Source: Saprospiraceae bacterium (lineage in GTDB: Bacteria > Bacteroidota > Bacteroidia > Chitinophagales > Saprospiraceae). From it: a DNA stretch of 53,076 nt. Below the pieces are notes generated by a model. That model did no database searches. It was not told the origin of the DNA and worked only from the letters and a program-made list of their open reading frames with translations. The translations under genes were made by a program, and so were the position numbers. This document shows, in pieces, positions 14,815 to 53,076 of this stretch; the stretch's first letter is position 1; the number at the start of each line of letters is the position of its first letter. The DNA is taken from the NCBI GenBank assembly GCA_016787345.1, contig JAEUUU010000122.1:1-53076 (forward strand), given 5' to 3'.

Positions 14815-14934
14815 CCCGCCTCAGGCTCGACCCATACGCCGTGCGCTGACCGGCCTTGCTCCGCCGGCCTTGTCCGCACCCGCCGGATGGGCCTCGCTTT
14901 AGCACATAAGAAAGCCGGAGCGGTCTCCTCAATA
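14815..14934 (-). promoter_or_regulatory. DGR target flank after VR1 (shared with VR2)
   Basis: These ~120 bp after VR1 (and after the stop of the giant FGE gene) are largely identical to 51110-51231 after VR2, although non-coding except for the final codons. The part nearest the gene contains a 4-bp stem with a CGGT loop (14917-14928, GGAG/CTCC) directly against the stop codon. Next is a 19-nt motif (14901-14919) whose reverse complement borders the TR at 49474-49492. By analogy with other DGRs this is the likely homing-recognition region. GGCCTTG and GGCCGGC words farther on may form further structure. Confidence 0.7.
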
Positions 14935-17900
14935 CTGAAGGACGAGGCGGAAGCCGATATCGCTGCCGAGACTCGTCGGCCCGTAGGCGAGGCGAATGGC
15001 GGCACGGCAACCCTGCGGATCGTTGTTCCAGCCGCCGCCGCGATTCACCCGGTTGTCGCCCGAATCCGGCCCCGTCGGATTCTTCGCCCCCTTGGAAATT
15101 GTTTTGTAATAATCTTTTCCGTACCAGTCGCTGCACCACTCCCATACATTCCCGCTCATGTCGTACAAACCCAGGATGTTGGGCTTTTTTTGCCCCACGG
15201 GGTGCGTTTGGCCTCCGCTATTGCCACCGTACCAGGCTACTTCATCGAGGTTGTCGCTGCCGGCGTACAGGAACATCCGTTTGGGGTCGGCTTTTTGCCC
15301 GCCCCGGGCCGCGTACTCCCACTCGGCCTCGGTGGGCAGGCGGTAGTTTTGGCCCGTGCGTTCGGAAAGCCAGCGGCAGTATTCCGTTGCACCGTACCAA
15401 CTTACGTTCACAACCGGGTGCTTCTCGTAGCCCGACTGGGGCGCGTACCTGAAAGGGCCTTTCTGGATGGGGATACGGATGCCCCAGTCATGCTCTTCGA
15501 TCATCGTCATCCCCTGGTACGGCCCGTTTTTGACGGTGGTGCTGCCGTAATCGTTGAGGAAGGCGGCATATTGTTCGTTGGTCACCTCGGTGGCGGAGAG
15601 GGCGAAGCCGGAGAGGGTGACGGGGTGCGGGGGCTTTTCGTCGCTATAACAATCTTTGCTTTGTTCGTCGGTACAACCGAGGGGGAGGGTACCGCCGGCG
15701 ACGGTGAGCATGGTGGGGAGGGGGATGAAGTCTGTATCCAACTTAAAGAGCTCGTATTTTTCGATCAGGTTGATCAATGCAGTGGCAAAGGTGTTGGAGG
15801 AAGCATAACCGGCGGATTCCAGGCCCCTGGCCCATGCCTTGTAGTCGGTTCTTTTTAGCGCAAAGAGAAATCCGTAGCGGTTGGTTTTTCTGGGATCTCT
15901 CAAAAACTCGCTTTGATCGCGGTACGATTCGGCAGCATCCTGATATTTTCGAAAACAGGTTTCAACCGGATTGCCTTCCGCATCGCGGTCATCTGATGTC
16001 ATACGATAAGTGCCCCCGGTCCAGTTGCTACCACATTTTAATCCGAAATGGTTGTTGGCCGCCGAAGCCAAATCGCTTTGACCGGATTGGCTTTCCAGAA
16101 TAGCCATACCCAACAAAATACTTGCTGGCACCCCAACCCGCTCCATCTCCTCAATAGCAATACCCATGTATTGGGCAATATATAATTGTATCAAATTGTC
16201 TGCACTGGGGCATCCTTTATACTCCTTTAAACCTTTGGTATCCGGGCATAAGTCGTCCGAGTCCTGCACACCATCTCCGTCTCTATCTACAATCGGATTA
16301 TTATTTCCCTGCTCCGATGGTGGCATCGGCCGCAACCAGATTGTATCCCTTGCGTTATCCGTTCTTGGTTTAAAGCCGCCCTCCCAGGCCAAATAACCGG
16401 GTGCTTTTACCCGAAGCGATACAAAAGCAAAGGGTTTGCCGGGGAATACGTACCCGGCATGGCCCCGGCTGTCGCTGGTCATGGGCCGGATGCTGCGCGT
16501 ACTGATTTCAGCATTGGGTACGGGGGCTTTGGTCTGGGCATCGAGCAGGAGCACCCGAAGGGCGTAAGCGACACGTGCCGGGGGCTCCTGTTCCGGCTTG
16601 TCCGGAAACAGCAGCGTTTCAAGGTTGACCGGCATGGCGGTGCGGAGGGAATCGAAGTAGGTGTTATTCGAAAAGGTTTGGATATTGTTATAGAATCGGA
16701 TAGCTAATCCGACGTGGTCGATGGTATCCTGTTTGGAATTTGACAGATAATAATGGCAGAGGCCCTCACAGTGGTCGGTAGCAAGTTGTATTTGTGTTAC
16801 GTTTCCAGCATATCGAGGAAAAGTATCCCTCTTTTGTGTCAAGGCAGCCTCTACCTCCGAAATTGCTGCACTATCCGAAAGATAGAAGTTTAATCGTTGG
16901 GCAGAGGAATTGTAGTTAAACGCCTCCTGATTTTGGAAAGCCAGATTGTAATTTCCATCAATCTGTGCTCTTAAAAGCTCCGCCTGGTAAAAAAGTGTAT
17001 TAGCCACTTGAATTGAATCTCTGTTCCCTTTCCATTGACTATACTCCTTTATACCAGCCAATCTTTTGCCAATTCCCACCGCCTCGTTGTGCAGCCGCAG
17101 CGCCTCGTCGTCGATGCGCTGTTGGGCTTGCCAGACGGGCAGGGCGGCGCTTGCTGCCGCGGGTGTTTCGGCCAGGCGGTGGTTGGCGTCGACGCCCCAG
17201 GCCAGGAGCAGGGCGCTCAGGGCCACGCAGGCCAATGCCGCGCCCATTTCCCAAGTCCACCAGCGTTTGGGTTTCGGGGTATCGAGCCAGGCGGTGAGGT
17301 TTTGGGTGGCCCCGGCGGGCAGGCCCGTGCCGTCGGCGCGTTCTTGCACGATCCAGTCGAGTTCGGCTTCCTGGCTGCCGGAGAGCAGGCCCAGGGCGCG
17401 CAGTTCGCGGATGGCCTGTTTGTGGGCCTCGTCGCGCGGGTCAAGGGCAAACTGGTGGATGGCGAGGTGGACGCGCCAGTCGGTTTCGGCAAAGGCGCCG
17501 GCGACCTGTTCGCGCACGGCTTCGAGTTCGGCGGCGGCGGCCTGGCGGGCGAGGCGCTCGTCGTCGGGCGGGCATTGGGCGAGCAGGGCCAGGCGGAGCG
17601 CCGTGGCCGGTTCGTTGGCGCTGAGCCAGGGAATGCGCGAGAGGCGCAGCAGGCGGTCGTGCGTCGGCTCGATGCCGAGGGCGTGGCCGATAGCCAGGGT
17701 GAGGGCGTAGTCGGGCTGGGCGCTGACGGCCAGGGCGCAGAGCCAGCGGAAGGCCTCGGGGTCGTGTTGTAAAAATTCGCGGTGCGCCTCGGCGCTGTCC
17801 CAGCGGCGGTAGCGGTCGCTGGCGTCGCGGCGGCTGCGGCCCTGGGCGGTTTCCCAGAGCACGAAGGGGTCGGGGGCAAATTCTTCGAGGGCTTCGAGGG

Positions 17901-19641
17901 CCTCGAAACCGGCGAGCAGTCCCTCGGTATCGGCCGGGTAGAGCAGAAAATGCTGGTGCAGCAGGGCTTCCTGGTACGACCAGGCGGCCACGGGCGAGGG
18001 CGTGAGCAGCAGGCGTTTGCGCCAGCGGAGCAGTTGAGCGACCTCGGCGAGCAGGGCCGGGCGGCGGGTGTCGTAGGGATTGATCAGGCCGTGACCGTCG
18101 CCGAGCAGCACGAGCTGGTGGTCGGCGTAGTGCTGGGCCAGGTGGTGCAACGGCAATCCGGCGGGGTGGTCGGGGTTCCAGAAGCGGCGGAAATGGCCGT
18201 CGTGGAAAAAGACGGTGACGGGCGCGTCCTGGTTTTTGAGGAAACTGGTGAGGCGTTCGAAGAGGCGACCCTGCTGGTCGCGCTCGTCGCGGCGCGTCAC
18301 GAGCACGAGGTAGTCGGGCGGAGAAGTGAGCGCGCGTTCGCGCCAGCTGGGGAAGCCGCCGCTTTCGATGGTGGCGTTGATGGAGGCGTTGGCGTCGAAA
18401 CTACAGCGTTCGTCTTCTTCCCGGCGGCTGAGCACTTCGGCCATGCGGAAAAAAGCGGCTAATCCGCCGATCAGGTGGTTGTTGGGGCGGTAGGGAATGT
18501 GGTAGGGGCCGATGTCGTGGATGGGGTATTCGGCGGCGAGTTCTTCGGGTGTTTTTTCGGCGGGTTTCTGCCGGCGTTTTTGCAGCCAGCGGCGCAGCAG
18601 CCAGGCGGCGGGCAGCAGGGGCAGGAGCAGCAGGAGCCAGACCCAGCCGGCCAGTTGGCGGAGCAGGCGGGGTTGGTCGTATTGCAGTTCGGCGAGTTGG
18701 AGGAAGGGTTTGTCGGAGCCAACTTCGAGGCGGGTGTCGACCGTTTCGTAGCAGTCGCTTTCCTGTTTGGGCCGCGCGACGATGCACTCCACGGCGACCT
18801 GGCCCTCCTGTTTGAATTCGTGCTGGATGTTACTTCCGGGTACCGTATCCCGCCCGTCGAATACCCAGCGCACGACCGCGCCGCGTTCGGCTTTGACCGT
18901 AAACGGGTATTTTTTATGTAAAATAAAGGGTCCCCGCGGCCACACAACCGTATCGATGTCGGGCGGATCAGCGCAGTGGATATGGACGGTCATGGAGTCC
19001 GCCACCCGGTTGCCGGAATACAGCCGGACCTGTTTGTCGGCGCCGTAGCCGGCAGCCTGCCAGTACCAGCGGTCGCCCGCCTGGTACACGCTGTCCAATG
19101 CCCCCGATGCGGCGTCTTTGACTTCCCAGTACAGCGAGTCTTTTGCAGGAATGATTTGGTTGACGGGTTGCCAGTTGTGCAGCGGCACGGTGTCGCGGTC
19201 GCGCACCAGTTTATCCATGGAACTGGAGCGGTCGATTCCAATAAAGAAGTTTTCCTCCTTCGGCGCTTGTACAAAAAACGCCTGGTATATCCAGTAGCCC
19301 GCCAAGCTGAGCAACAGCACGGTCAATGTGGGCCAAACGATATTTTTCCAAAGCGGGCGGGGCGGGTCGGGCTGTTTTTGCCCCGCTTCCGGGTCGACTG
19401 CCTCCTTTTTACATTCTTCCAAAAACCCGTCCCACAGTTGGTAAAACCGCTCCTGTTCAGCCGCCGTGGTGGCGATGAGCGGGGCGAGCAGGTATTTGAG
19501 TTCTTCAGTTTTGCCCACGAACCCGGCCCCCTGGGCATGCAGCGCGCGCCACAGCCGCAGCTTCCGGCGGGTATCGAGGCGAAACCCGGCGGCTTGCAGT
19601 TGCGCGAAGAGGCGCGTGAGGGGGAGAGGTGTGGGTGCCAT
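14929..19641 (-). CDS. Giant membrane protein: glucosaminidase + DGR-diversified FGE domain
   Basis: The protein has 1570 residues from the ATG at 19641; the longer frame upstream translates cassette repeat. Residues 1-85 resemble the N-terminal helical part of CoxE/vWA proteins that partner MoxR. TM helices lie near 99-121, 331-351 and 795-815. Residues 215-290 look PKD-like. The large segment 352-790 is probably cytoplasmic and includes a Rossmann-like stretch (DYLVLVTRRDERDQQGRLF). After TM3 come a CarboxypepD-regulatory-like fold (1026-1103), one TSP3 repeat (DRDGDGVQDSDDLCPD), a FlgJ-like glucosaminidase (1150-1298, probable catalytic Glu1182 in AILESQSGQSDLA) and an FGE-sulfatase domain (1306-1570) ending GFRLVLQY. 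VR1 encodes the tip. MoxR and an iSTAND-like gene lie upstream. Function is inferred: a receptor/effector with a variable sensor and wall-cutting activity. Confidence 0.88.
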   Translation of the reverse strand: MAPTPLPLTRLFAQLQAAGFRLDTRRKLRLWRALHAQGAGFVGKTEELKYLLAPLIATTAAEQERFYQLWDGFLEECKKEAVDPEAGQKQPDPPRPLWKNIVWPTLTVLLLSLAGYWIYQAFFVQAPKEENFFIGIDRSSSMDKLVRDRDTVPLHNWQPVNQIIPAKDSLYWEVKDAASGALDSVYQAGDRWYWQAAGYGADKQVRLYSGNRVADSMTVHIHCADPPDIDTVVWPRGPFILHKKYPFTVKAERGAVVRWVFDGRDTVPGSNIQHEFKQEGQVAVECIVARPKQESDCYETVDTRLEVGSDKPFLQLAELQYDQPRLLRQLAGWVWLLLLLPLLPAAWLLRRWLQKRRQKPAEKTPEELAAEYPIHDIGPYHIPYRPNNHLIGGLAAFFRMAEVLSRREEDERCSFDANASINATIESGGFPSWRERALTSPPDYLVLVTRRDERDQQGRLFERLTSFLKNQDAPVTVFFHDGHFRRFWNPDHPAGLPLHHLAQHYADHQLVLLGDGHGLINPYDTRRPALLAEVAQLLRWRKRLLLTPSPVAAWSYQEALLHQHFLLYPADTEGLLAGFEALEALEEFAPDPFVLWETAQGRSRRDASDRYRRWDSAEAHREFLQHDPEAFRWLCALAVSAQPDYALTLAIGHALGIEPTHDRLLRLSRIPWLSANEPATALRLALLAQCPPDDERLARQAAAAELEAVREQVAGAFAETDWRVHLAIHQFALDPRDEAHKQAIRELRALGLLSGSQEAELDWIVQERADGTGLPAGATQNLTAWLDTPKPKRWWTWEMGAALACVALSALLLAWGVDANHRLAETPAAASAALPVWQAQQRIDDEALRLHNEAVGIGKRLAGIKEYSQWKGNRDSIQVANTLFYQAELLRAQIDGNYNLAFQNQEAFNYNSSAQRLNFYLSDSAAISEVEAALTQKRDTFPRYAGNVTQIQLATDHCEGLCHYYLSNSKQDTIDHVGLAIRFYNNIQTFSNNTYFDSLRTAMPVNLETLLFPDKPEQEPPARVAYALRVLLLDAQTKAPVPNAEISTRSIRPMTSDSRGHAGYVFPGKPFAFVSLRVKAPGYLAWEGGFKPRTDNARDTIWLRPMPPSEQGNNNPIVDRDGDGVQDSDDLCPDTKGLKEYKGCPSADNLIQLYIAQYMGIAIEEMERVGVPASILLGMAILESQSGQSDLASAANNHFGLKCGSNWTGGTYRMTSDDRDAEGNPVETCFRKYQDAAESYRDQSEFLRDPRKTNRYGFLFALKRTDYKAWARGLESAGYASSNTFATALINLIEKYELFKLDTDFIPLPTMLTVAGGTLPLGCTDEQSKDCYSDEKPPHPVTLSGFALSATEVTNEQYAAFLNDYGSTTVKNGPYQGMTMIEEHDWGIRIPIQKGPFRYAPQSGYEKHPVVNVSWYGATEYCRWLSERTGQNYRLPTEAEWEYAARGGQKADPKRMFLYAGSDNLDEVAWYGGNSGGQTHPVGQKKPNILGLYDMSGNVWEWCSDWYGKDYYKTISKGAKNPTGPDSGDNRVNRGGGWNNDPQGCRAAIRLAYGPTSLGSDIGFRLVLQY
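14935..15061 (-). repeat. DGR variable repeat VR1
   Basis: This is a 127-bp repeat aligning without gaps to TR (49491-49617). By eye there are 19 differences read on the coding strand. Fourteen fall on TR adenines, for example three consecutive AAC codons becoming CTC, GCC and TAC. Five do not (ACG to GAT accounts for two, CGC to CTC one, and two are silent C-to-T). VR1 encodes the last ~41 residues of the giant FGE protein. The non-adenine changes suggest drift since its last copying or an older TR version. Confidence 0.9.
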
Positions 19642-19648
19642 GGAGAAC

Positions 19649-19672
19649 GTAGGAGTAGGAGTAGGAGTAGGA
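19649..19672. repeat. Hexanucleotide microsatellite (GTAGGA)4
   Basis: Four perfect GTAGGA units (TCCTAC on the coding strand) lie 7 bp upstream of the start codon of the giant FGE gene and abut the left terminus of the GxxExxY cassette. Unit-number change would alter leader length and spacing but not the reading frame. Confidence 0.85.
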
Positions 19673-20196
19673 TGGGAACGCGGATGAGGCGGATTGGGGC
19701 GGATTATCACGGATGATCAGCCCGCCCAGTCAGGGTCATTGGCTTCTTTGTCTTTTTTTATTGTTTGAAAAAATCAATCGTGCGAATTCAGGTTTTCTGC
19801 CGAAATTCAATAAAAAGCCAAGTTCGATGTCGGTTGCTTTCAAATAGTTCTGCAATTGCAAACGATGTTCGTCGAGCATACACTCACATGCTTTCAGTTC
19901 GAGAATAATTTCATTTTCAACCAACAGATCGGCAAAATAGGTACCCACCTGCCGGCCTTTATAAACTACTCCAATTTGGGGCTGGGCTACAACACCCAAG
20001 CCCATTTCCTGCAGTTCCAGATACAAAGCATTCTGGTAAACCCGTTCCAGAAAGCCGTAACCCAGCTCATTGTATACTGCATAAAAAGCGCCGAGTATTT
20101 TCTCCGTTATGTGCTTTTTTTCCAACATACCTGTAAAGGTTTTCATAAAAAATCTGTGAAAATCCGCCCCAATCCGCCTCATCCGCGTTCCCATCC
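19670..20196. mobile_element. GxxExxY cassette with 36-bp terminal inverted repeats
   Basis: A 36-bp sequence beginning GGATGGGAACGCGGATGAGG at 19670-19705 recurs as a perfect reverse complement at 20161-20196. The only gene inside is the GxxExxY nuclease-like gene. No transposase is visible. The unit lies between the MoxR stop codon (4 bp away) and the start of the giant FGE gene (29 bp away), so it splits an otherwise tight operon. Related decayed repeats occur at 14526-14814, and a gene-less 29-bp inverted repeat of similar wording at 36008-36121. Confidence 0.75.
19736..20146 (-). CDS. GxxExxY family protein (PDDEXK-like)
   Basis: The protein has 136 residues from the ATG at 20146; the open frame upstream is terminal-repeat sequence. 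It has the family-naming motif in ELGYGFLERVYQNALYLEL (G-F-L-E-R-V-Y) and then YFADLLVENEIILELKA. The D...ExK spacing of that second segment fits a PDDEXK-type nuclease fold. The biological role of GxxExxY proteins is not established. They are common in environmental Bacteroidota and Planctomycetota and often sit between inverted ATCCGC repeats, as here. It is oriented with the host operon, so it would be read through from the MoxR gene. It is probably a passenger rather than a working part of the conflict operon. Confidence 0.88.
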   Translation of the reverse strand: MKTFTGMLEKKHITEKILGAFYAVYNELGYGFLERVYQNALYLELQEMGLGVVAQPQIGVVYKGRQVGTYFADLLVENEIILELKACECMLDEHRLQLQNYLKATDIELGFLLNFGRKPEFARLIFSNNKKRQRSQ

Positions 20197-20199
20197 TGC

Positions 20200-21096
20200 T
20201 CAGCCGAACAAGCTTTTCACCGCTTCCAGGTCGTCTTTTGTTTTTACCAAAAAGGGCAAGTTCAGTTGCAGCATTTCCTTGCGCCGGGCCGCGTCGTTTT
20301 CCTGCCAGTAGCCGCCCAGGCCCAGGATGTTCAGCCAGGCGATGAGTTCGGCCGTGGCCGGTTTTTTGCGCACGGCCTTGTCGCGGGCGGCTTCGAAGAG
20401 GGCGATGAGTTCGTCGTAGCGCGCACCGGCCGGGGCCGCGCCGGCGAGGTGGGCTTCGACGATCTGCCGCAGGCGTTCGCCGCGTGGAAATTCGAGGTGA
20501 AAAAAAGCGCAGCGGCGCAGAAAGGCGTCGGGCAGATTTTTTTCGGAGTTGGAGGTGAGCACCACGACGATGTCGGCCTGCTCGCCTTTCTGGGCCTGAA
20601 AACCGGGCAATTCCTTGATGGCGAAGCGGAAGTTTTCCATCTCATCGAGCAGGTCGTTGGTGAAATCGCGCGGGGCCTTGTCGACCTCGTCGATGAGCAC
20701 CACGGCGCTCATGGGTCTTTCGGGCAGTTGCAGGCGGAATTTTTCGGTGAATTCGGGTCGCGGGTCAGAATACGCGATCGCCTTGCCGAAGGGTTGCAAT
20801 TCGATAAATTCCTCGGTGCGCACGGCCCGTTCGCCGCGCAGGTTGGCGGCCTGGAAGTGCGAGAGGGCGTCGTAGGTATAAAACAGGTCGCTCGCCTTCG
20901 AGGTCGTTTTGGTGTTGAACCGCAGCACCTGCGGCCAGTAGGCGGCCTGGTTTTGGGCGCCGAGGTATTCGAGGGCCCAGCGGGCCATTTCGGTTTTTCC
21001 GGTGCCGGGTTCGCCGGTGAGCAGCAGGGGCTGTCGCAGGCGGATGGCCGCGTTGAGGGCGTGTTCCTGGCCGGGAGCGGGGATGTAGTTGGGCAT
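20200..21096 (-). CDS. MoxR-type AAA+ ATPase
   Basis: The 298-residue AAA+ ATPase has Walker A GEPGTGKT at 28-35, Walker B AVVLIDEVDKAPRDF at about 131-145, and a sensor-1/arginine-finger region VVVLTSNSEKNLPDAFLRRCAFF. This is the MoxR type that remodels or activates a partner, usually a vWA protein. The gene starts 3 bp after the stop of the upstream EAD11-iSTAND gene, so the two are translationally coupled. Downstream, after an inserted cassette, is the giant FGE protein. Sets of iSTAND or EAD protein, MoxR ATPase and a large effector match the ternary NTP-dependent conflict systems described for multicellular and social bacteria. The ATPase probably gates activation. Confidence 0.92.
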   Translation of the reverse strand: MPNYIPAPGQEHALNAAIRLRQPLLLTGEPGTGKTEMARWALEYLGAQNQAAYWPQVLRFNTKTTSKASDLFYTYDALSHFQAANLRGERAVRTEEFIELQPFGKAIAYSDPRPEFTEKFRLQLPERPMSAVVLIDEVDKAPRDFTNDLLDEMENFRFAIKELPGFQAQKGEQADIVVVLTSNSEKNLPDAFLRRCAFFHLEFPRGERLRQIVEAHLAGAAPAGARYDELIALFEAARDKAVRKKPATAELIAWLNILGLGGYWQENDAARRKEMLQLNLPFLVKTKDDLEAVKSLFG

Positions 21097-21099
21097 GGC

Positions 21100-22233
21100 T
21101 TAGCGCAGATTTTCGGCCCGGATGACGAGGCCTTTGTTGTGCAATTCGATGATTTTGAGGAGTATGCTTTGTATTTCAATCATGTCGAGGCGTTCGGCAG
21201 AGCCGAAGAGTTCGCGGCGCATGTCGTCGGCAGTTTTGCCGGGCGGCACCACGGCGGCGCGGTAGCGGCTGAACCACTCCGTGATGTCGGGCGCGGCCAC
21301 GGGTTCGAGGGCGGGCAGCGCTTCGCCGCCGTGTTTTCGGGTACTGATCGCTTCGTGGATTTCGGTTTTTTTGTCCTGCTGGCCGGGCTCGTATTCCACG
21401 CCGAAAAAGAAGAAAAAGGTGGGTGCGGCCGGCGGCAATTCGACCTGCAGGAACTTCTGAATGAAGTTTTCCATCATCAGGGGCACGAGTTCGCGGTTCC
21501 AGTTGGCCGCGTCCATGGTGAGCAGGATAAACACCAGATCATCGGCTTCGAAGCCGTGCAGGTCGGAGCCTTCGCCGAGCAGGTCGCGCAGGGTGCGGTT
21601 CTGGAGGGGGGCTTTATCGTCGAGGCGGGGAAAAAATTTGGCAAACAGGGCTTTGACCACGTTGATCTGGTACAACATGGGGTGGCGGTGCACCTCGGGT
21701 TTGAGTTTGCACAATTTGACGCGGATGCCAGGGTTGTAGTCGCCGTTTTCCCAATTGGCCAGGTAGCCGCCCAGGTCGTAGCCGAAGCGTTCGAACAGGC
21801 TGGTTTGCTCCTGGCGCGCGTCGCCGTAGAGGAAGTAGAGGTGAAGTTTCTGGCCTTCGGCCGTGTAATAGGCGAGTTGGAACTGGTCGTTCTGATCGAA
21901 GCGGTCGCAGGTGTAGGCGTGCCAGGGCGAGAGGGCGGCGCGGGAGGCGGCGGATTTGCGCAGGCGCTCGCAGAGGTCGACCATTTCGATACGGTCGATC
22001 AGCCACAAAAGGGCATGACTGACGTTGGAAAAATTGATGCCGCGCTCTTTGTAATCGATCAGGTTGAGGTTGCCCGCCCGTTCGGCTTCGTGGTAGCGGT
22101 TTTCGATCATCACCGCGTCGTTGTAGAGATCGCAGTCGGTGCGCAGGGTATCTTCGCGCAGGCAGCGAAACGCCTCATCGTACCGGACCTGTCCGATAAG
22201 ATCTTTCAAATTGCGTTTCAGGGCGTCGAGCAT
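21100..22233 (-). CDS. EAD11 + iSTAND-like protein
   Basis: The protein has 377 residues. Residues 1-83 match an effector-associated domain of the EAD11 kind: LKDLIGQVRYDEAFRCLRED, then NDAVMIENRYHEAERAGNLNLIDYKERGINFSNVSHALLWLIDRI. From about 105 to 300 it looks like an inactive STAND (iSTAND) module: CDRFDQNDQFQLAYYT followed by LHLYFLYGDARQEQTSLFERF. I see no intact P-loop lysine, consistent with an inactive NTPase. The C-terminus (AERLDMIEIQSILLKIIELH) is helical. It is the first gene of the operon iSTAND-MoxR-FGE. EADs recruit partners by homotypic contact, so candidate partners in the window are the proteins at 31559-35278 and 48674-49345. The domain names rest on pattern memory, not a search. 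Confidence 0.75.
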   Translation of the reverse strand: MLDALKRNLKDLIGQVRYDEAFRCLREDTLRTDCDLYNDAVMIENRYHEAERAGNLNLIDYKERGINFSNVSHALLWLIDRIEMVDLCERLRKSAASRAALSPWHAYTCDRFDQNDQFQLAYYTAEGQKLHLYFLYGDARQEQTSLFERFGYDLGGYLANWENGDYNPGIRVKLCKLKPEVHRHPMLYQINVVKALFAKFFPRLDDKAPLQNRTLRDLLGEGSDLHGFEADDLVFILLTMDAANWNRELVPLMMENFIQKFLQVELPPAAPTFFFFFGVEYEPGQQDKKTEIHEAISTRKHGGEALPALEPVAAPDITEWFSRYRAAVVPPGKTADDMRRELFGSAERLDMIEIQSILLKIIELHNKGLVIRAENLR

Positions 22234-44886: not shown

Positions 44887-46326
44887 ATGACACAGCCTTC
44901 GTCCGAGAATTATCAACACGCTTTTGCCGAAGCCCTTTTTCGCCGCCAGCAGGAATACGCGCCACAGGTCGCCCGCGGCACCGTGCGAGAACGCAAAGCC
45001 AAACTCCGCCGCCTCCACGACTGCCTTCTGCGCCGCCGGCATGAGATGTACGCCGCCATGCAGGCCGATTTTGGCAAAGGCGAAACCGAAGTGAATATTT
45101 CCGAGATCGGGGTGATTAACACCGAAATCCGGCACACTATCCGGCATCTGAACTCCTGGCTGACGCCCAAGCGGGTAGGCACCCCGATGATGCTGATCGG
45201 GACGCGATCGGAAATCCGATACGAAGCCAAAGGCGTCTGTCTGATTCTTTCGCCCTGGAATTTTCCTTTCAACCTGGCCCTGGCGCCGCTGGTTTCGGCT
45301 GTCGCCGCCGGTAATTGCGTCATTTTGAAGCCCTCGGAGTACACGCCGCACAGCGCGGCACTGATCAAAAGCATCGTAGAAGAGTGCTTCCCGCCCGAAG
45401 AGGTATCCGTGCTGGAAGGCGGCCCCGATTTGGCCCAACACCTGACGGAACTGCCGTTCAATCATATCTTTTTTACAGGCAGCCCGGCCGTGGGCAAACT
45501 GGTGATGGCCGCCGCTGCCCGCAACCTGGCCTCCGTGACGCTCGAACTGGGGGGCAAAAGCCCCGTGCTCGTCGATGAAAGCGCCGACCTGGATGTTGCG
45601 GCTAAAAAGATCGCCTGGCTCAAAGCCCTCAACGCCGGCCAATGCTGCATCGCCTGCGACTACGTGCTGGTGCACGAAAGCGTTCACGACGCCCTGGTGG
45701 AAAAACTGGGCGAAAAATTCCGCCGCTTCTACGGCGACAGTCCGGAAGCCCGCAAAGCCTCGCCCGACTATTGCCGGATGGTCAACGACCGGCATTTTGC
45801 CCGCGTCCAGTCGCTGCTCGACGACGCCGTGCAGCGCGGCGCAAAAATTGCTTTCGGCGGCCATCTGGACGCCGGCGAACGCTATTTCGACCCCACCGTA
45901 CTCACCGACGTACCCGACGACGCCGTGATCTGGCAGGAGGAAATCTTTGGTCCGCCCATGCTGATCCGGCCCTACAAAACCCTCGATGAAGCCCTCGCTT
46001 TTATCAATGCCGGCCCGCGCCCGCTGTCAATGTCCATCTTCAGTGCGCGCCACAGCGCCATCGAAACAGCCTTGAACCAAACCCGCGTGGGCACCACAAC
46101 CGTCAACGACGCCGGTATCAGTTTTTACCACAGCGACCTGCCCTTCGGCGGCGTGAACAACAGCGGTTTCGGCAAATGCCACGGCCACCACGGATTCCTC
46201 GAATTCGTCAACCAGCGCGGGGTCTCTTACCAAAACCGGATCTTCCCGCATACCAACCTGTTCCACCCGCCCTACAAATCCAAAATTGCCGATTTGATGC
46301 TGCGGGGGGTGATGAGGTGGTTTTAG
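44887..46326 (+). CDS. Class 3-like aldehyde dehydrogenase
   Basis: The 479-residue NAD(P)-dependent aldehyde dehydrogenase has the dinucleotide-binding segments LSPWNFPFNLALAPLVSAVAAGNCVILKPSE and FFTGSPAVGKLVMAAAA. The general base Glu220 is in TLELGGKSP, and the catalytic Cys254 is in NAGQCCIACDYVLVH. The C-terminal FGGVNNSGFGKCHGHHGFLEFVN is typical of the ALDH3-like group, which oxidises medium and long-chain or aromatic aldehydes to acids. It begins after a 352-bp gap and is alone on its strand. Its stop is directly followed by a G-rich repeat array. Confidence 0.93.
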   Translation: MTQPSSENYQHAFAEALFRRQQEYAPQVARGTVRERKAKLRRLHDCLLRRRHEMYAAMQADFGKGETEVNISEIGVINTEIRHTIRHLNSWLTPKRVGTPMMLIGTRSEIRYEAKGVCLILSPWNFPFNLALAPLVSAVAAGNCVILKPSEYTPHSAALIKSIVEECFPPEEVSVLEGGPDLAQHLTELPFNHIFFTGSPAVGKLVMAAAARNLASVTLELGGKSPVLVDESADLDVAAKKIAWLKALNAGQCCIACDYVLVHESVHDALVEKLGEKFRRFYGDSPEARKASPDYCRMVNDRHFARVQSLLDDAVQRGAKIAFGGHLDAGERYFDPTVLTDVPDDAVIWQEEIFGPPMLIRPYKTLDEALAFINAGPRPLSMSIFSARHSAIETALNQTRVGTTTVNDAGISFYHSDLPFGGVNNSGFGKCHGHHGFLEFVNQRGVSYQNRIFPHTNLFHPPYKSKIADLMLRGVMRWF

Positions 46327-46747
46327 CAGGGTCTTGGGTTTTGGGGGTTGGCAAAAGGGTTACTGGTTTTGGGTTTTAGGTGTTGGGTTTTGGCAAAAGG
46401 GTTGTTTCTGCTCCCGAATCGGGTTTTGGGTTTTGGGGGTTGGGTTTTGGCAAAAGGGTTGTTTCTGCTCCCGAATCGGGTTTTGGGTTTTAGGTGTTGG
46501 GTTTTGGCAAAAGGGTTACTTCTGCTCCCGAATCGGGTTTTGGGTTTTAGGGGTTGGTTTTTGGCAAAAGGGTTACTTCTGCTCCCGGATAGCGCTTCGG
46601 ATTCGGGTAGAAATTAACCACCGCTCGCGCGAGGCTGTGCCTCGTGACAGTATTAGAGAGCAGAAACAACCCTTTTGCCAAAACCCAACCCCTAAAACCC
46701 AAAACCAGTAACCCTTTTGCCAAAACCCAACCCCCAAAACCCAAAAC
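46327..46747. repeat. 57-bp tandem repeats, telomere-like G-rich, with inverted copy
   Basis: Units of 57 bp recur at least four times, seen as CTCCCGAATC at 46411, 46468 and 46525 and CTCCCGGATA at 46582. Each carries GGGTTTTGGGTTTT followed by further G-runs (GGGGGTTGGG at 46436-46445) and GGCAAAAGGGTT. An inverted block follows at about 46653-46747 (CCCTTTTGCCAAAACCCAAC and similar), so the region forms a large imperfect hairpin around about 60 bp. The four spaced G-runs can form G-quadruplexes on the plus strand left of centre and on the minus strand right of it. One plus frame translates the array as a 19-residue repeat, but nothing suggests it is expressed. The array touches the stop codons of both flanking genes. 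Confidence 0.88.
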
Positions 46748-47614
46748 CTAAAAAACCTGCAAACATTTTTCCAGACTTTCCCGCCAGTGTGGAATGGTCA
46801 GTCCGAACGCGGCCTTGATTTTGCCTTTGTTGAGCACGCTGAACGGCGGGCGTTGGGCCGGGGTGGGGAAATCGCGGGTTTCGATGGGCAGTACGCGGGT
46901 GGGCAGTTTTTTCAGGTCAAAAATCGCCTGTGCAAAGTCGTACCAGCTGGCCACCCCTTCGTTGGAATAATGCCAGATGCCGGATAGATCGGCGGGAGCA
47001 ACTTCCTTGTTTTCCACTTTTTGGATAATGGTCAGTACCGCTTCGGCCAGGTCGGGGGCGTAGGTCGGCGTGCCGATCTGGTCGAACACGACGCGCAGTT
47101 CGGGGCGGTCGGCGGCGAGGCGGAGCATGGTGCGCACGAAATTGTGGCCCTGCGGGGCGTACACCCAGGAGGTGCGGATCACCATCGTATGCGGGTGCAC
47201 GGCCAGGGCGGCGCGTTCGCCGGCGAGTTTGGTGCGGGCGTACACGCCTTTGGGGCTGACCGGGTCGGTTTCGCGCAGCGGCGCGTTTTTCGTGCCGTGG
47301 TACACGTAGTCGGTGGAAAAATGGATCAGCGGGATACCGGCTTGCGCGCAGGCCTGGGCCAGGTTTCTGACGCCCTGCACATTGACGCGGCGGGCCTGGG
47401 CCGGCTCGCTTTCCGCCTTGTCGACAGCCGTATACGCCGCGCAATTGATGCACCAGTCGGGGCGGTTTTGTTGAAAAAAACGCTGCACGGCGCGGCGGTC
47501 GGCGATGTCGAGATCGGCCGAGCCGGCAAAATGAAAGGCAAATTGCGGGAAGCGGGCCGCCAGTTGGCGGAAGCACTGGCCAAGTTGGCCGTTGGCGCCG
47601 GTGAGGAGGATCAT
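46748..47614 (-). CDS. rfbD: dTDP-4-dehydrorhamnose reductase
   Basis: The protein has 288 residues from the ATG at 47614 (MILLTGANGQLGQ); an upstream extension is out of family. It is an extended short-chain dehydrogenase with the nucleotide loop TGANGQLG, CINCAAYTAVDKAESEPAQARRVNVQG and the catalytic Tyr-Lys in GVYARTKLAGE. The motif HFSTDYVYHGTKNAPLRETDPVSP is diagnostic of RfbD/RmlD. It reduces dTDP-4-keto-L-rhamnose to dTDP-L-rhamnose, a building block of surface polysaccharide. No rfbA, rfbB or rfbC is adjacent. Its stop lies at the edge of the G-rich inverted repeat. Confidence 0.93.
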   Translation of the reverse strand: MILLTGANGQLGQCFRQLAARFPQFAFHFAGSADLDIADRRAVQRFFQQNRPDWCINCAAYTAVDKAESEPAQARRVNVQGVRNLAQACAQAGIPLIHFSTDYVYHGTKNAPLRETDPVSPKGVYARTKLAGERAALAVHPHTMVIRTSWVYAPQGHNFVRTMLRLAADRPELRVVFDQIGTPTYAPDLAEAVLTIIQKVENKEVAPADLSGIWHYSNEGVASWYDFAQAIFDLKKLPTRVLPIETRDFPTPAQRPPFSVLNKGKIKAAFGLTIPHWRESLEKCLQVF

Positions 47615-48673: not shown

Positions 48674-49345
48674 ATGACGCCCGATACCCTTCTCGCCGTA
48701 CGCCAACTCATCGCCGCCGACCAGTTACGCCAGGCCATCGACCTGCTGCTCGCCCAGGCCGACGCCCCGGCCGCCGGCGATCTGCTGCAACTCTCGGGCC
48801 GCCTCAGCGACCTCGAACGCGACCACAGCCTGCGTACCGAAAGCGCCGAACAACTTGACACCCGCCGCAACCAGCTGCGCGCCGACCTGCTGGACTGGGT
48901 TCAGCGCCCGGCCGCTGCCGCCGACCCGGTTGCACAAGCCGGCCTACGACTCAAAAAAGCAGCCTTCCGGCTGGTGCTCGTCTTCCAGATCGCCCTGATC
49001 CTGCTGGTGTTGTTTCACTTAGACACCGGCGGCTACGCCAATGGCGAAGCCCTCACCCTCATCGGGCTGCTCTCGCCCGTGCTGGCCGGCTACCTGCTCA
49101 CCGCCCTCAAAGGATACGGCCGCCCCGGCCTGAGCGCCGCCGCCCGACGCAGCCTGCCCGTGCTGCGCGCGGTGGTGTGGGCGCTGTTTCCGCTCTATTT
49201 CCTGCTGCTGTGCTGGGTGCTCAACCGCAACCCCGCCGGAGACTGGCCCTTCGAGACCGCCCGCAACTGGGTCATCGGCATCGAAGCCGCCTTCGGCGGC
49301 GTGCTGGCGTATGTGGTGAGGGTGTTGTTTGGGGAGGAAGGGTAA
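48674..49345 (+). CDS. EAD11 domain fused to a four-helix membrane anchor
   Basis: The protein has 223 residues. Residues 1-78 match EAD11: [23 protein letters not shown], then [42 protein letters not shown]. Four hydrophobic helices follow: [61 protein letters not shown] and [21 protein letters not shown] small EAD-plus-membrane protein is a plausible effector or docking platform, because EADs couple sensors to effectors by homotypic contact. It ends about 145 bp from the DGR template repeat and points toward it (convergent with the RT gene). Pairing with the iSTAND or TIR-STAND proteins is inference. Confidence 0.75.
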
Positions 49346-49473
49346 AAAAGCAGTGGCAGAACCTTCGCGATCCCTGCGCTACCAATACTGCCGCCGCACA
49401 ACGGCTGCCCGAGCCGCTCTTTGTCCCGTCCGAAACGGACAGAATCAGGACAGATACCTGTACATCAGAGCCG

Positions 49474-49492
49474 TCCGGCTTTCTTATGTGCT
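49474..49492. repeat. 19-nt motif bordering TR, inverted relative to both VR flanks
   Basis: TCCGGCTTTCTTATGTGCT on the plus strand here is the exact reverse complement of 14901-14919 after VR1 and matches 51199-51217 after VR2 at 18 of 19 positions. It overlaps the TR edge by two bases. Just outside it a small AGCC-GTCC-GGCT hairpin (49468-49479) is possible in the TR transcript. Confidence 0.85.
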
Positions 49493-49617
49493 GGAGGACG
49501 AGGCGGAAGCCGATATTGTTGTTGCGATTCGTCGGCCCGTTGTTGTTGCGGATGGCGGCACGGCAATTCTGCGGCGTGTTGTTCCAGCTGCCGCCGCGAT
49601 TCACCCGGTTGTCGCCC
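49491..49617 (-). repeat. DGR template repeat (TR)
   Basis: This 127-bp template lies 13 bp after the RT stop and is read on the same strand. On the RT sense strand it would encode [13 protein letters not shown] and [16 protein letters not shown]. Asn codons (AAC/AAT) are packed where the VRs vary, the classic adenine-rich template design. It contains 32 adenines; 18 are replaced in VR2 and 14 in VR1. It starts no supported gene: an open frame of 110 codons runs through it without a plausible protein. It is probably co-transcribed with HRDC and RT. A 5-bp hairpin at 49428-49440 lies farther downstream. Confidence 0.95.
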
Positions 49618-49630
49618 TATGGCATCTGAC

Positions 49631-50620
49631 CTATTCCTTCAAAAGTACCGATCTCCGAAAATTATTCGAAGATGCATGACGAGCAAATGCAACAAGCGGC
49701 AATGCGTGATGCTGACAGGTTTTCTCGTCCCATTCCCCGCTTTGATGCCGGGCTTCAATCAACTTTAGTTTTCGCGCAAACCGCGTTTTGCTTTTAGGCA
49801 AAAGCCGTACTTCTCCGGGGAAAATCTTGTATCCCAAAAACGGAACGCCGTGCCCCACGCCATGCATTAAAACAGGCTTAAAGGAACATTGAAGATTGTC
49901 TGCCAAAAAGCGACTTATTTGCGCATACCAGGTCCAGAGTTGTTCCTTGCTATGATGCCATAACACCAAATCATCCATGTAACGCACATAAGCGCTTACC
50001 CCCAACTTTTCCTTTACATAATGGTCAAGCCCGGACAGATAATGATTGGCAAAATATTGGCTGGTCAGATTACCAATCGGCAAGCCGCGTTCGGGCGATG
50101 CGGCATAACTGTCGATGATCTGATAAAAAATCGCGAGCAAGGTCTTTTCCTTGAACAGGCCCGCAAGTTGTCTTTTAAGCACGGCATGGTGAATGCTGTC
50201 AAAAAACTTTGTGACGTCGAGTTTCAAATAACAGCCGTGCCTGTCCGTGAATTTTCGGGCTCTTTCAAGCGCCGCGTATACTCCTTTGCCTTTCCGGCTC
50301 GCATAACTGTCGAAGATCAACGAACGCTCGAACCGGTCATGGCAGATGTTCATCAAGGCATGGTGCAGGACCTGCTCGCCAAAAGCGCTTGCGCATATCT
50401 GCCTTTCTTTCGGTTCGTACACTTTGAAATACCGATACCTTCCCACCTCTACCCTGCCCGATAAAATCTGTGCGCGCAAATTGAACAGATTATGCTCCAA
50501 TTCCCGCTGGTAAGCCAGTACCGACGCGGCATATCGCTTCCCTTTTGCCGCTTTCCAACTGGCTAATCGTAGATTGTCCGGGTCGGCAATCCGTTCTAAA
50601 AGATGATTATCCCTGATCAT
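49631..50620 (-). CDS. DGR reverse transcriptase
   Basis: The protein has 329 residues from the ATG at 50620, which overlaps the end of the HRDC gene by 14 bp (translational coupling). RT motifs are present in order: motif A CYLKLDVTKFFDSIHH (Asp135), motif B GLPIGNLTSQYFANHYLSGLD (179-199) with the SQ typical of DGR and related RTs instead of group II intron QG..SP, and motif C YVRYMDDLVLW with Asp216-Asp217. There is no maturase or endonuclease domain. The next element downstream is the template repeat. The enzyme copies TR RNA with errors at adenines and delivers the product to VR1 and VR2. It is the only RT in the window, so VR1 would be served in trans over distance. Confidence 0.95.
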   Translation of the reverse strand: MIRDNHLLERIADPDNLRLASWKAAKGKRYAASVLAYQRELEHNLFNLRAQILSGRVEVGRYRYFKVYEPKERQICASAFGEQVLHHALMNICHDRFERSLIFDSYASRKGKGVYAALERARKFTDRHGCYLKLDVTKFFDSIHHAVLKRQLAGLFKEKTLLAIFYQIIDSYAASPERGLPIGNLTSQYFANHYLSGLDHYVKEKLGVSAYVRYMDDLVLWHHSKEQLWTWYAQISRFLADNLQCSFKPVLMHGVGHGVPFLGYKIFPGEVRLLPKSKTRFARKLKLIEARHQSGEWDEKTCQHHALPLVAFARHASSNNFRRSVLLKE

Positions 50621-51050
50621 GGTGGGAAGAAGGAATAAAATAGACGCCGTATTTCTCGGTTTTTTTCTCTCCAATACCCTTTACGCTTTTCATGGCCGAT
50701 TGAGTGAGCACGTCAAACTTGGCAAGCTCGGATAATTCCTCGTCCGTAAAAACCGCGTAGGGCGGCACCTGTTCCCGCGATGCGACTTCCTTTCGAATCT
50801 CCCTGAATCGTGAAAATCGTTCAAACGCCGATTCATCCAATATTGCTTTGTAATCTACCCGTTCCTTCATTTTTACCGGCGAATAATCCTCCGTGTAGTG
50901 AATACAAAAACTCCAGTAAGCCCCGCCATCGGCTGGACTAACCAGACGCCGCTCCACTTGCAGTATTTTTTTACTGCGTAAAAAAACATTGAGCTGCTCG
51001 TTCATCACTTCGCCGCCCATGGCGGGCACGGCAATTATTTTTACCTGCAT
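50607..51050 (-). CDS. DGR accessory protein with HRDC domain
   Basis: The protein has 147 residues. The N-terminus MQVKIIAVPAMGGEVMNEQLNVFLRSKKILQVERRLV, followed by GAYWSFCIHY, is a conserved segment of HRDC-type DGR accessory proteins. Residues ~75-140 form the HRDC domain (YKAILDESAFERFSRFREIRKEVA, PPYAVFTDEELSELAKFDVLTQSAMKSVKGIGEKKTEKYG). HRDC domains bind nucleic acid. In DGRs of this type the protein replaces the more common Avd and may help position template and target. It overlaps the RT by 14 bp. A terminator 24 bp upstream of its start separates it from the VR2 target gene. Confidence 0.9.
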   Translation of the reverse strand: MQVKIIAVPAMGGEVMNEQLNVFLRSKKILQVERRLVSPADGGAYWSFCIHYTEDYSPVKMKERVDYKAILDESAFERFSRFREIRKEVASREQVPPYAVFTDEELSELAKFDVLTQSAMKSVKGIGEKKTEKYGVYFIPSSHHDQG

Positions 51051-51073
51051 AGCGCTATTTTTTTTTTAAAAAT

Positions 51074-51092
51074 TTTGGGGCTGCGCCCCAAA
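51074..51092 (-). terminator. Terminator between the caspase-FGE gene and HRDC
   Basis: An 8-bp stem (TTTGGGGC/GCCCCAAA, 3-nt loop) is followed on the minus strand by ATTTTTAAAAAA. It ends the target-gene transcript after its conserved flank and 24 bp before the HRDC start, so HRDC-RT-TR has its own promoter or depends on read-through. Confidence 0.65.
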
Positions 51093-51109
51093 CCCCCTCT
51101 GTTTTCCCC

Positions 51110-51231
51110 ACCCAGCTCAGGCTCGACCCATACGCCGGCGGCTGCCTCGGCCTTGCTCCGCCGGCCTTGTCTGCCCCCGCCGAATGGGCCTCGCTTCAGC
51201 ACATAAGAAAGCCAGAGCGGTCTCTTCAATA
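51110..51231 (-). promoter_or_regulatory. DGR target flank after VR2 (shared with VR1)
   Basis: This is the counterpart of 14815-14934. The 4-bp stem against the stop codon (51214-51225) is AGAG/CTCT with the same CGGT loop, so the outer base pair has changed from G-C to A-T while pairing is kept. The 19-nt motif (51199-51217) follows. Homology to the VR1 flank ends near the terminator at 51074-51092. Confidence 0.7.
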
Positions 51232-53076
51232 CTGGAGGACGAGGCGGAAGCCGATACCGCCGTAGCGAATCGTCGGCCCGTTGTTGAGGCGGACGGCGGC
51301 ACGGCAATACTGCGGCGTGCAGATCCAGCCGCCGCCGCGAAACACCCGGTAGCCGCCCCTGTTCGGGCTGTCTATCCAAGCGCTGCCGTTGGTCGGGGCG
51401 CCCTGATAATTGTCATGCCAGTCGTCGGCGCACCACTCCCACACGTTGCCGCTGAAGTCGAAAAGATCCAGTTCGTTGGCTTTTTTGGTCCCCACGGCGT
51501 GGGTTTGGTTGCCGCTGTTCCCGCTGTGCCAGGCTACCTCGTCGAGGGTATTGCTGCCGGCGTAAAGATAATGGCGGGTTTTGTTTCCGCCGCGCGCCGC
51601 GTATTCCCATTCCGCCTCCGTGGGCAGACGGTAGGTCTGGCCGGTTTTTTGCGACAACCAGGCGCAGTAGGCAACGGCCCCGTACCAGGTGACGCAGACG
51701 ACCGGATGGTTTTCGTAGCCGCTTTTCACCGTGAATCGGCTGCCCGACTGTTCGATCCGGCAGCAGGACAAATCGACCCAGGTTTCGCCACCTTCTTTCT
51801 GATTGCCTTTTTCATTCAAAAACTGGCAATACTCGGCATTGGTCACCTCGTAGCGCCCGATGTAAAAATCGCGTAACGTGACGCTGTGGGCGGGTTTTTC
51901 GTCGTCGTAGCAATCCGTATCGCGGCCGTCTTTACAGCCCATGGTGAAGGTACCGCCGCTCACCAGTACCATATTGGAGGGGCGGGTCACATCGGGGCAG
52001 CCGTCTTTGAGGGCGCTGCCTTTTTCCCGGGGGCATTTGTCGTCGGGGTCGGGTATGCCGTCGGCGTCGGTATCGGGGCAGCCCTGGAAGTTGGCGCGGC
52101 CGGCGGCGTCGGGGCAGCGGTCGGCGCGGTCGGGCACGCCGTCGCCATCGCGGTCGGGGGCCGGGCAGCCCTTGTCGGCGGCGGCGCCTTTTTGGTCGGG
52201 GCATTCGTCCTGGTGATCGGGCAAGCCGTCGCCGTCGGTATCGGGGCAGCCTTCCCAGCGGGTTTCGCCGGCGAGGTAGCGGCATTTGTCGCTTTGGTCG
52301 GGTACGCCGTCGTCGTCGGCATCGGGGCAGCCGCGGGCTTTGGCCGTGCCGAACTGGTCGGGGCAGGCGTCGGTGGCGTTGGGTATGCCGTCGCCGTCGA
52401 GGTCGGCCGCGCTGGTGGGCAGTTTGTCGGGGCAGCCGTTGTTGGCGGCCGTGCCGTAGGTATCGGGGCAGGCGTCGGTGGCATTGGGTACGCCATCGCC
52501 GTCGCGGTCAGTGGCGGCGGGCGGCGGGGCGGGCGTCAGGTTGCGCACAAACAAAAACGCGTCGGCGTCGCGGTTGCCCAAAAATTCGCCGAACACCGGC
52601 CGGGGCTGGGCGTACTGGAGCTGGTCTTTCAGGTCGTCCATGGTCAGGATGCCCTTGCTGTCGTAGTGGTTTTGCAGGGCGTCGAGGAATTGCGCGGCGA
52701 ATTCGGAGCGGTCGGTTGTCGGTTTGTTGCCCGCCGCCGCGTAGTAGATGCGCGATTGTTCGGCCAGCGTCTGGCGGATGAACAGGTCGCGGGCGTCGGG
52801 CTGGTTGGGGCGCACGGGTTTGACGTAGCCCCGGAACAGGTCGGGGCAGGCCGTCGCCAGATCGGCCGTACCCGCGTAGCAGGCATCCATCATCAGCAGG
52901 ATGTGTTTGCAGGGGATGCTGGCGATACGCTGCTGCAGGTCGGCAAAACTCAGGTAAGAGGTGCCGTCGGGGTCGTTGGGCAGGCCGTCGCGCGGCACGA
53001 AATAGCCCGTACACTGTCCGTCGTAGTAGCCGTGTCCGCCGAAAAACACCAGCAACTGGGCGTCGGCCTCATAGGT
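51226..53076 (-). CDS. Caspase-like peptidase + TSP3 repeats + DGR-diversified FGE domain (5' truncated)
   Basis: The frame is open to the window edge, so the N-terminus is missing; 616 residues are visible. The visible start carries the caspase/C14 His motif LLVFFGGHGYYDG and then the catalytic Cys motif HILLMMDACYAGTADLA. About seven calcium-binding TSP3-type repeats follow (DRDGDGVPNATDACPD and variants). The C-terminal ~250 residues are an FGE-sulfatase domain: MVLVSGGTFTMGC, YEVTNAEYCQFLN, YRLPTEAEWEYAARGG, FSGNVWEWCADD, ending RVFRGGGW and GFRLVLQY. The last 41 residues are encoded by VR2. It precedes HRDC-RT-TR and is the local DGR target. Caspase plus a variable lectin-like domain suggests recognition-triggered proteolysis or cell suicide. 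Topology is unclear without the missing end. Confidence 0.92.
   Translation of the reverse strand, partial: TYEADAQLLVFFGGHGYYDGQCTGYFVPRDGLPNDPDGTSYLSFADLQQRIASIPCKHILLMMDACYAGTADLATACPDLFRGYVKPVRPNQPDARDLFIRQTLAEQSRIYYAAAGNKPTTDRSEFAAQFLDALQNHYDSKGILTMDDLKDQLQYAQPRPVFGEFLGNRDADAFLFVRNLTPAPPPAATDRDGDGVPNATDACPDTYGTAANNGCPDKLPTSAADLDGDGIPNATDACPDQFGTAKARGCPDADDDGVPDQSDKCRYLAGETRWEGCPDTDGDGLPDHQDECPDQKGAAADKGCPAPDRDGDGVPDRADRCPDAAGRANFQGCPDTDADGIPDPDDKCPREKGSALKDGCPDVTRPSNMVLVSGGTFTMGCKDGRDTDCYDDEKPAHSVTLRDFYIGRYEVTNAEYCQFLNEKGNQKEGGETWVDLSCCRIEQSGSRFTVKSGYENHPVVCVTWYGAVAYCAWLSQKTGQTYRLPTEAEWEYAARGGNKTRHYLYAGSNTLDEVAWHSGNSGNQTHAVGTKKANELDLFDFSGNVWEWCADDWHDNYQGAPTNGSAWIDSPNRGGYRVFRGGGWICTPQYCRAAVRLNNGPTIRYGGIGFRLVLQY
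51232..51358 (-). repeat. DGR variable repeat VR2
   Basis: This is a 127-bp repeat aligning without gaps to TR (49491-49617), about 1.6 kb away. By eye there are 18 differences, all at adenines of the template (changes to G, T or C), and none at other bases. Examples on the coding strand are AAT to TTT, AAC to TGC and AAT to GGT. It lies at the 3' end of the caspase-FGE gene. The clean adenine signature indicates recent or ongoing diversification. Confidence 0.95.

Follow-up and report, generated by a model that had tools for sequence, protein, structure and literature searches.

The 53,076-nt contig JAEUUU010000122.1 of a Saprospiraceae bacterium (assembly GCA_016787345.1), which was analyzed in full and is referred to below as the window, carries a complete diversity-generating retroelement (DGR) of the HRDC type with the layout VR-HRDC-RT-TR, where TR is the template repeat, VR is a variable repeat and RT is the reverse transcriptase, plus a second, distant target with its own repeat, VR1. 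The ~30 nt of the template RNA (TR-RNA) that follow TR, named the F linker, are complementary to tags, termed V-boxes, that lie in the DNA immediately downstream of each VR. Based on comparative sequence analysis, we consider it likely, although well short of certain, that this recently active DGR uses F to link the template to the self-primed complementary DNA (cDNA) and to anneal to the V-box, which would serve as the target address. With slightly less confidence, we propose that the whole DGR clade has an RNA-encoded target address, in which a block of ~14 nt after TR would base-pair with the tag that lies behind every target gene, so that the RNA-primed cDNA would arrive as an RNA-DNA fragment already assembled. 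If this is true, acquisition of the tag together with VR homology could turn any gene into a target, and the RNA and the tag would drift together. The available text of a 2026 paper (PMC12875486) describes the way in which DGR cDNA locates and enters its target as incompletely understood; our comparison of genomes suggests a rule of base pairing that connects template RNA to target DNA, and it predicts which adenine primes the cDNA. The minus-strand gene order is target 2 (cut by the contig end), HRDC, RT and TR, with a distance of ~36 kb between VR1 and VR2:

49491..49617, minus strand: TR, 127 bp with 32 A and G as the last base; 18/18 TR-VR2 differences on TR adenines
49350..49490, minus strand: TR-RNA 3' domain, a conserved structured RNA with the F linker hairpin, two further stems, and a terminal helix followed by a T run
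49461..49490, minus strand: F linker, the 30 nt that follow TR in TR-RNA; for the most part complementary to the sense strand of the VRs at the V-boxes
49477..49492, minus strand: address block, 16 nt comprising the last 2 bases of TR and the first 14 of F
51198..51231, plus strand: V-box 2, tag downstream of VR2; the plus strand reads like the F linker
51232..51358, minus strand: VR2, recently diversified according to the TR alignment and a sister-strain comparison
51226..53076, minus strand: target 2, caspase-like protein with TSP3 repeats and an FGE/C-lectin domain; N-terminus beyond the contig
14901..14934, plus strand: V-box 1, tag downstream of VR1, conserved in the sister strain
14935..15061, minus strand: VR1, second distant variable repeat with 19 differences from TR, 14 of them on A
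49631..50674, minus strand: DGR-type RT (PF00078), likely start at ATG 50620
50607..51050, minus strand: HRDC accessory protein (PF00570, E 3.9e-14)

Complementarity of the template RNA to the target flanks

A repeat search revealed an inverted match between positions 49467-49496 and 51194-51223, just after TR and just after VR2, and the downstream flank of VR1 bears the same inverted match to the TR flank. The 16-nt block AGCACATAAGAAAGCC occurs with zero mismatches at three sites of the window's genome (94% complete), namely after TR and, inverted, after VR1 and VR2; with two mismatches there is one further site, and a reversed control pattern has two sites at up to two mismatches. For the comparative analysis, a scan of genome contigs returned 160 relatives, of which the best 80 were kept, and a scan for adenine-biased repeat pairs gave a pair in 91 of 114 RT loci, 74 of which are distinct by TR. 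Several of these loci share genomes and many are near relatives, so the counts below do not represent independent events; some phylum labels rest on bins of metagenome-assembled genomes (MAGs) and may be wrong.

Three of the 74 loci, which have short flanks, were omitted from the flank comparison. In 55 of the remaining 71 loci the inverted match between the TR flank and the locus's own VR flank scores above all 200 shuffles (in two of the 55, L033 and L078, the match is out of register and the TR ends are mis-set), with a median score of 15.5 versus 7.1 for the shuffles. Direct similarity of the TR and VR flanks was rejected, its median of 7.5 being close to the shuffled 7.1. An exact run of at least 9 nt that starts at TR+0 to +2 is present in 47 of 72 loci, as compared with 1.7% of 5014 cross-locus pairs with a different flank. 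Exclusion of 13 of the 74 loci (five of other lineages, and eight whose TR ends are mis-set, whose flanks are short or whose TR/VR are uncertain) left 61 clade loci. In 34 of them the 60-nt VR flank of the locus contains a 13-mer identical to the opening 13 nt of F, and in 53 a 13-mer there agrees with these at 11 or more positions, versus 2 and 208, respectively, of 3578 controls; counted by distinct F 13-mers, the match is identical in 23 of 43 and reaches at least 11 positions in 38. Nine of the 13 F positions show all four bases, with V following F, and between loci whose F sequences differ at one to three sites we counted 403 concordant versus 62 discordant site differences (the pairs overlap). 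Among 18 further VRs in multi-VR loci, nine are followed by the exact first 9 nt of F, and five miss this 9-mer by one base or a one-base insertion (by eye). A palindrome as the cause of the F/V match was ruled out because the match runs past the hairpin. The comparison establishes the F/V-box complementarity and covariation, from which we infer a use in homing. The available portions of PMC3240598, PMC12875486, PMC4372165, PMC6199706, PMC4891356, PMC3521204, PMC6642488, PMC8144416 and PMC8867640 do not mention this complementarity; a prior mention elsewhere is possible.

The register of the match is constrained as well. It begins at the last base of TR, which is G in 57 of 61 loci, and in 33 of 45 loci the identity includes this one TR nucleotide and no more. 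Beside the VR, the V-box antisense strand ends in A in 59 of 61 loci, as against ~25% T in the VR flank, and does so in 23 of 23 cases (13 distinct flanks) where the VR ends in TAG. The far V-box edge lies 30-35 nt from the VR in 38 of the 45 loci with an exact 9-mer. Of the 56 loci with an ACAG-like motif, 44 have its candidate primer A at F+30 to +32; five loci have no such motif. Owing to this register, the boundary A and the matching lengths, the target antisense strand reads like F joined to cDNA. Column A30 (position 49461, the last base of F) is invariant in 31 of 31 aligned rows and is the predicted cDNA-priming adenine. In the BPP-1 DGR, a spacer adenine primes the cDNA and a covalent RNA-cDNA hybrid forms, as described in the available part of PMC12875486. 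The BPP-1 priming adenine (A56) precedes UGUCCUG by 8 nt, and A30 is spaced in the same way in the window.

The TR flank constitutes a conserved RNA of ~140 nt that is opened by F. Its structure was drawn by hand on 18 chosen loci, and the pair counts therefore lean towards it; with slide and shuffle controls, 90.1% of the cells pair versus 79.7 after shuffling, and double-sided changes are present in 18 of 22 pairs versus 8.7 (0 of 500 shuffles as high). RNAalifold on a loose alignment recovered six pairs only. The covariance model R1 has one convincing match in the window's genome (E 6.9e-28; the next is 0.078), and at E 2.3e-6 or better it matches the window and 76 of the 80 genome-contig loci, 18 of which built the model. 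Its best E value on 61 of 107 viral loci of other DGR lineages is 0.016, and the BPP-1 DGR region yielded no convincing match (best E 0.57). Weak minus-strand R1 matches start at the V-boxes of L058, L059, L064 and L066 (E 5e-4 to 0.013), in agreement with what a linker-plus-cDNA arrangement predicts. Two DGRs of another lineage (on contig C118 of the same genome and in L038) match the 3' part of R1, and F is weakly matched in L014 and L038 (by eye); the C118 TR-RNA matches the 3' part at E 4.9e-6 and hardly the address part. Rfam gave no match above the gathering score in 49200-51400, and one chance-level match elsewhere.

A proposed landing mechanism and alternative explanations

In the proposed mechanism, an adenine of the TR-RNA shortly past TR would prime the cDNA, as in BPP-1, and template and cDNA would be joined via the RNA linker F (~30 nt). 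The linker would pair with the sense strand immediately downstream of each VR, at the V-box of mostly 30-35 bp. Since F is complementary to the sense strand there, the hybrid 5'-F-cDNA-3' would be colinear with the target antisense strand and could bridge the VR boundary by annealing there in the manner of an RNA-primed Okazaki fragment. The V-box would be the address that admits a gene as a target, both in cis (VR2) and at a distance (VR1), and a V-box search would be a way to find remote targets. From these comparisons we infer that A30 primes the cDNA, that F anneals to DNA in the course of homing and that the targets act as sensors. Such a landing would agree with a replication-strand preference and with the Okazaki-like idea that the available text of PMC12875486 credits to Naorem et al.

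Several observations weigh against this mechanism. Eight of the 61 clade loci match at fewer than 11 of 13 positions, V differs 176 times where F is unchanged in the comparison of locus pairs, and the V-boxes of some loci (L034, L124, L052, L126) are short or shifted. Four of the 18 further VRs have no address block, and the middle of F, which forms the RNA hairpin, is often not mirrored in V. A by-eye search found no pairing that would bring A30 to the TR end. In the BPP-1 family the F/V match is at background, and the stem downstream of the BPP-1 VR works with a swapped sequence according to the available text of Guo 2011 (PMC3240598), so RNA pairing with that stem is not needed.

The main rival explanation is that the RNA linker is partly copied into the target when the hybrid integrates, in which case F and V would be alike by conversion and their pairing would have no function. 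It accounts for the colinearity of the V-box with the expected hybrid, for the A in which the V-box ends where it adjoins the VR, and for an identity that mostly stops 1 nt inside TR (33/45). However, the middle of V differs from F identically in V-box 1, V-box 2 and the sister MAG SJ871 (GAGCGGTCTC against GACGGCTCTG), and V is sometimes shorter than F (L061, L030, L120). This shared mismatch and the short V-boxes suggest that V is not rewritten whole and that chiefly the address block is kept matched, and we regard the copying explanation as unlikely.

By the same complementarity F could instead bind target mRNA at its 3' end, where the V-box would be included, and TR-RNA might in this way regulate the target as an antisense RNA; this explains neither the register of the match relative to the TR end nor the A that adjoins the VR nor the matching lengths of linker and V-box, and seems to us quite improbable. 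A shade less credible again is that a single protein (HRDC or RT) recognizes both F and V as inverted sites, which would stay matched by co-evolution with that protein and not through base pairing. The constant adjacency of HRDC and RT in all 61 clade loci would suit such a protein, but V changes along with F (the 403 concordant and 62 discordant differences), and one protein would need to track each change. We give the least credence to a BPP-1-type hairpin downstream of VR as the sole target determinant, with incidental complementarity. Although short hairpins can be drawn after VR1 and VR2 (GGAG-ACCG-CTCC and AGAG-ACCG-CTCT), the 7-10 bp GC-rich hairpin with a GRNA loop that characterizes BPP-1 was not found after VR, where the drawable stem has 4 bp and an ACCG loop. 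Moreover, the 61 V flanks show little hairpin signal (mean z -0.34 for 38 nt and -0.49 for 24 nt; control stretch -0.13), whereas the complementarity is far above the controls.

Recent activity and distribution of the retroelement

The window has an adenine-specific TR-VR pair, the RT motifs, an accessory gene, an FGE target and signs of recent transfer; the BPP-1-type hairpin is the one examined DGR feature that was not found, and the first-pass annotation of a complete DGR is upheld. As also reported there, TR and VR2 align over 127 bp, and all 18 differences fall on TR adenines, of which there are 32, with every non-adenine base unchanged. The alignment has no gaps, and the changes are A to T in nine, A to G in eight and A to C in one case (hypergeometric p = 1.4e-13). 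VR1 differs from TR at 19 sites, 14 of them on A (p 1.6e-6). It looks older in the window strain, given its five non-adenine differences from TR, one of which (site 66) equals the TR base of the sister MAG SJ871 (locus L049).

SJ871 aligns with the window in three blocks of 91.6-95.2% identity, the longest of which spans 6.4 kb at 95.2%. The TRs of the two strains differ at five sites, and at all five the VR2 of each strain has the base of its own TR. Outside the adenine sites these are the only differences between the two VR2s, which also differ at 14 of the 31 adenine sites common to both TRs. In the SJ871 homologue of VR1, which is located on a different contig, all 18 differences from the SJ871 TR are on A. 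Since each VR2, as well as VR1 of SJ871, follows its own TR, the comparison points to TR-to-VR transfer after the split of the strains, in cis and at a distance. The earlier suggestion that the element was active until recently thus gains support from the private TR bases in both VR2s and the 14 differing adenine sites.

The RT open reading frame (49631-50674, from TTG) contains the YMDD and GLPIGNLTSQ motifs recorded in the first-pass annotation; many relatives' matches begin near the alternative ATG 50620. The reported 14-bp overlap between HRDC and RT holds for a start at this ATG and not for the TTG at 50674, from which the overlap is 68 bp. The best solved relative of the RT is 8ub7, a 328-aa 'Reverse transcriptase' (E 1.2e-36) of the same length as Brt of BPP-1, followed by a group II intron RT (E 7.5e-12); the phrog_1423 RT is matched at E 5.9e-94. 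In each of the 61 clade loci with sound ends, a match of the window HRDC protein lies immediately upstream of RT. Among 298 genomes sampled from the order, 20 (including the window's own) have an RT match at E 1e-40 or better.

Feature-positive RTs are confined to one clade of the tree (84 rows, support 99/96), which comprises Bacteroidota, Chlorobiota and a few MAGs of other phyla. The feature label changes often inside the clade, partly because many rows (39 of 101) are unscorable. L120, located just outside, has an 11-nt exact F/V match. The 78 DGRs of other lineages are at background with two marginal exceptions: in the BPP-1 family, two of 42 distinct DGRs exceed every cross-locus control, namely BPP-1 itself (11.0 versus a cross-locus maximum of 9.5) and L188 (9.0 versus 8.5), with L132 and L187 tied, and none of the other 36 does. 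We do not claim the F/V match as a general DGR feature, as only these two of the 42 exceed the controls.

In BPP-1, the matching 9-nt spacer segment AGGTGGTCA (NC_005357, 2831-2839) ends at the priming adenine and is also found in the VR antisense strand at IMH (initiation of mutagenic homing). The IMH* of TR pairs less well with this spacer (by eye), which is a possible reason for the difference between IMH and IMH*. The VR flanks of four loci of other lineages (L017, L037, L038 and L048) have a common AAAAGGGTAAAAG-like run just downstream of VR, antisense; no counterpart was seen in the 42 nt after TR.

Target proteins and related systems

The structured RNA downstream of TR, the tags downstream of VR1 and VR2, and the location of VR1 in an iSTAND-like operon are additions to the first-pass annotation. 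The neighborhood of VR1 and of the TR-RNA includes the following genes:

14929..19710, minus strand: target 1, 1593 aa, with glucosaminidase (PF01832, E 5.2e-30) and a C-terminal FGE domain (PF03781, E 2.4e-59) that holds VR1
20200..21096, minus strand: AAA ATPase (MoxR-like) adjoining target 1 (PF00004, E 7.3e-10; PF07728, E 5.5e-9)
21100..22233, minus strand: EAD11-iSTAND protein adjoining target 1 (PF19964, E 1.6e-13; PF19995, E 1.2e-11)
48674..49345, plus strand: EAD11 protein convergent with TR-RNA (PF19964, E 4.2e-15), hydrophobic segments by eye

Target 2 consists of a caspase-like domain, TSP3 repeats and an FGE-sulfatase domain of the C-type-lectin type, and profile matches agree with the earlier prediction of a diversified C-type-lectin-like tip on a caspase protein, the diversified stretch being the terminal part of its FGE/C-type-lectin domain. 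Its orthologue in SJ871 is full-length, with Peptidase_C14 matched at E 3.6e-15 (Pfam), and starts with a signal-peptide-like stretch (by eye); the caspase protein thus seems to be secreted. The TvpA structure 2y3c is among the solved relatives of the FGE domain of target 2 (E 2.8e-24). Sequence profiles identified FGE in 53 of 53 clade target proteins scanned, with NACHT in nine, PEGA in three and TIR in two; the sister-strain orthologue is the only one with a caspase domain. Target 1 is encoded in an operon with the AAA ATPase, for which the label MoxR-like is given by analogy with the systems of PMC7159879, and the EAD11-iSTAND protein; Pfam matched no vWA domain in the 1593-aa target 1. 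The mutated tips are probably FGE/C-lectin sensors of conflict-type proteins, a caspase in one case and a component of an iSTAND-type operon in the other. As the targets look like sensors of conflict systems, the proposed address may bear on anticipatory immunity in bacteria.

Among known systems, the BPP-1 DGR (brt/avd/mtd) shares with the window a related RT, adenine mutagenesis, an IMH region and a C-lectin-type target, the fold of Mtd being of the C-lectin type. It differs in having Avd instead of HRDC, TR before RT and an F/V match that is marginal in BPP-1 itself and at background in its family. The available text of PMC12875486 describes a TR-RNA 3' spacer with an internal cDNA-priming adenine, as proposed for the window, and that of PMC3240598 a long hairpin downstream of VR, unlike the window. 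In the TvpA DGR of Treponema denticola, whose target matches the window's FGE domain through 2y3c, an HRDC accessory gene overlaps RT, but it is located between TR and RT (PMC4891356, available part). The clade-5 DGRs of Thiohalocapsa PB-PSB1 (Dore 2024, PMC10907252) likewise include several DGRs per genome, FGE/CLec sensors, and MoxR, NACHT, TIR and caspase-like partners in the text available; the word HRDC is absent from its main text. The ternary conflict systems with iSTAND (Kaur 2020, PMC7159879) similarly combine a MoxR-like ATPase, an EAD-iSTAND protein and a long effector with an FGS/FGE domain, as far as the available text describes them. Its DGR section states a DGR association for VMAP systems, whereas in the window the FGE domain of the iSTAND-type operon is a DGR target fused to glucosaminidase; an iSTAND-type DGR target with glucosaminidase would therefore add to that association.

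The PF00078 profile matches three RTs in the window's genome, on contigs C117 (the window), C118 and C146, and the latter two likewise adjoin adenine-biased repeat pairs. The second DGR, on C118 (L017, 3623-8309), has a bAvd-type accessory gene on the strand opposite RT, and its target is an FGE protein with VR beside a TIR protein. In the third DGR, on C146 (L013, 3144-9394), RT and an Avd-like open reading frame (by eye) are on the strand opposite TR and VR, an arrangement that resembles the 'inverted' DGR type in the available part of PMC3521204; its target is similar to the long iSTAND-operon protein (by eye). A search of the genome with TR found seven places, namely TR, VR2, VR1 and four weaker ones, of which that on C146 belongs to the repeats of the other DGR and the remainder resemble FGE gene ends. 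The VR-like FGE gene end at C183:34598-34718 is 75% like TR; 19 of its 32 differences are on TR adenines and every G is retained, and it is perhaps an orphan target of a related DGR; AGAGACCGCTCCGGCT follows it, much as after VR1, but without the address block. Finally, between two genes of the window, 46308-46592 and 46652-46748 contain 57-bp tandem repeats and an inverted copy of a GGGTTTTGG-rich unit.

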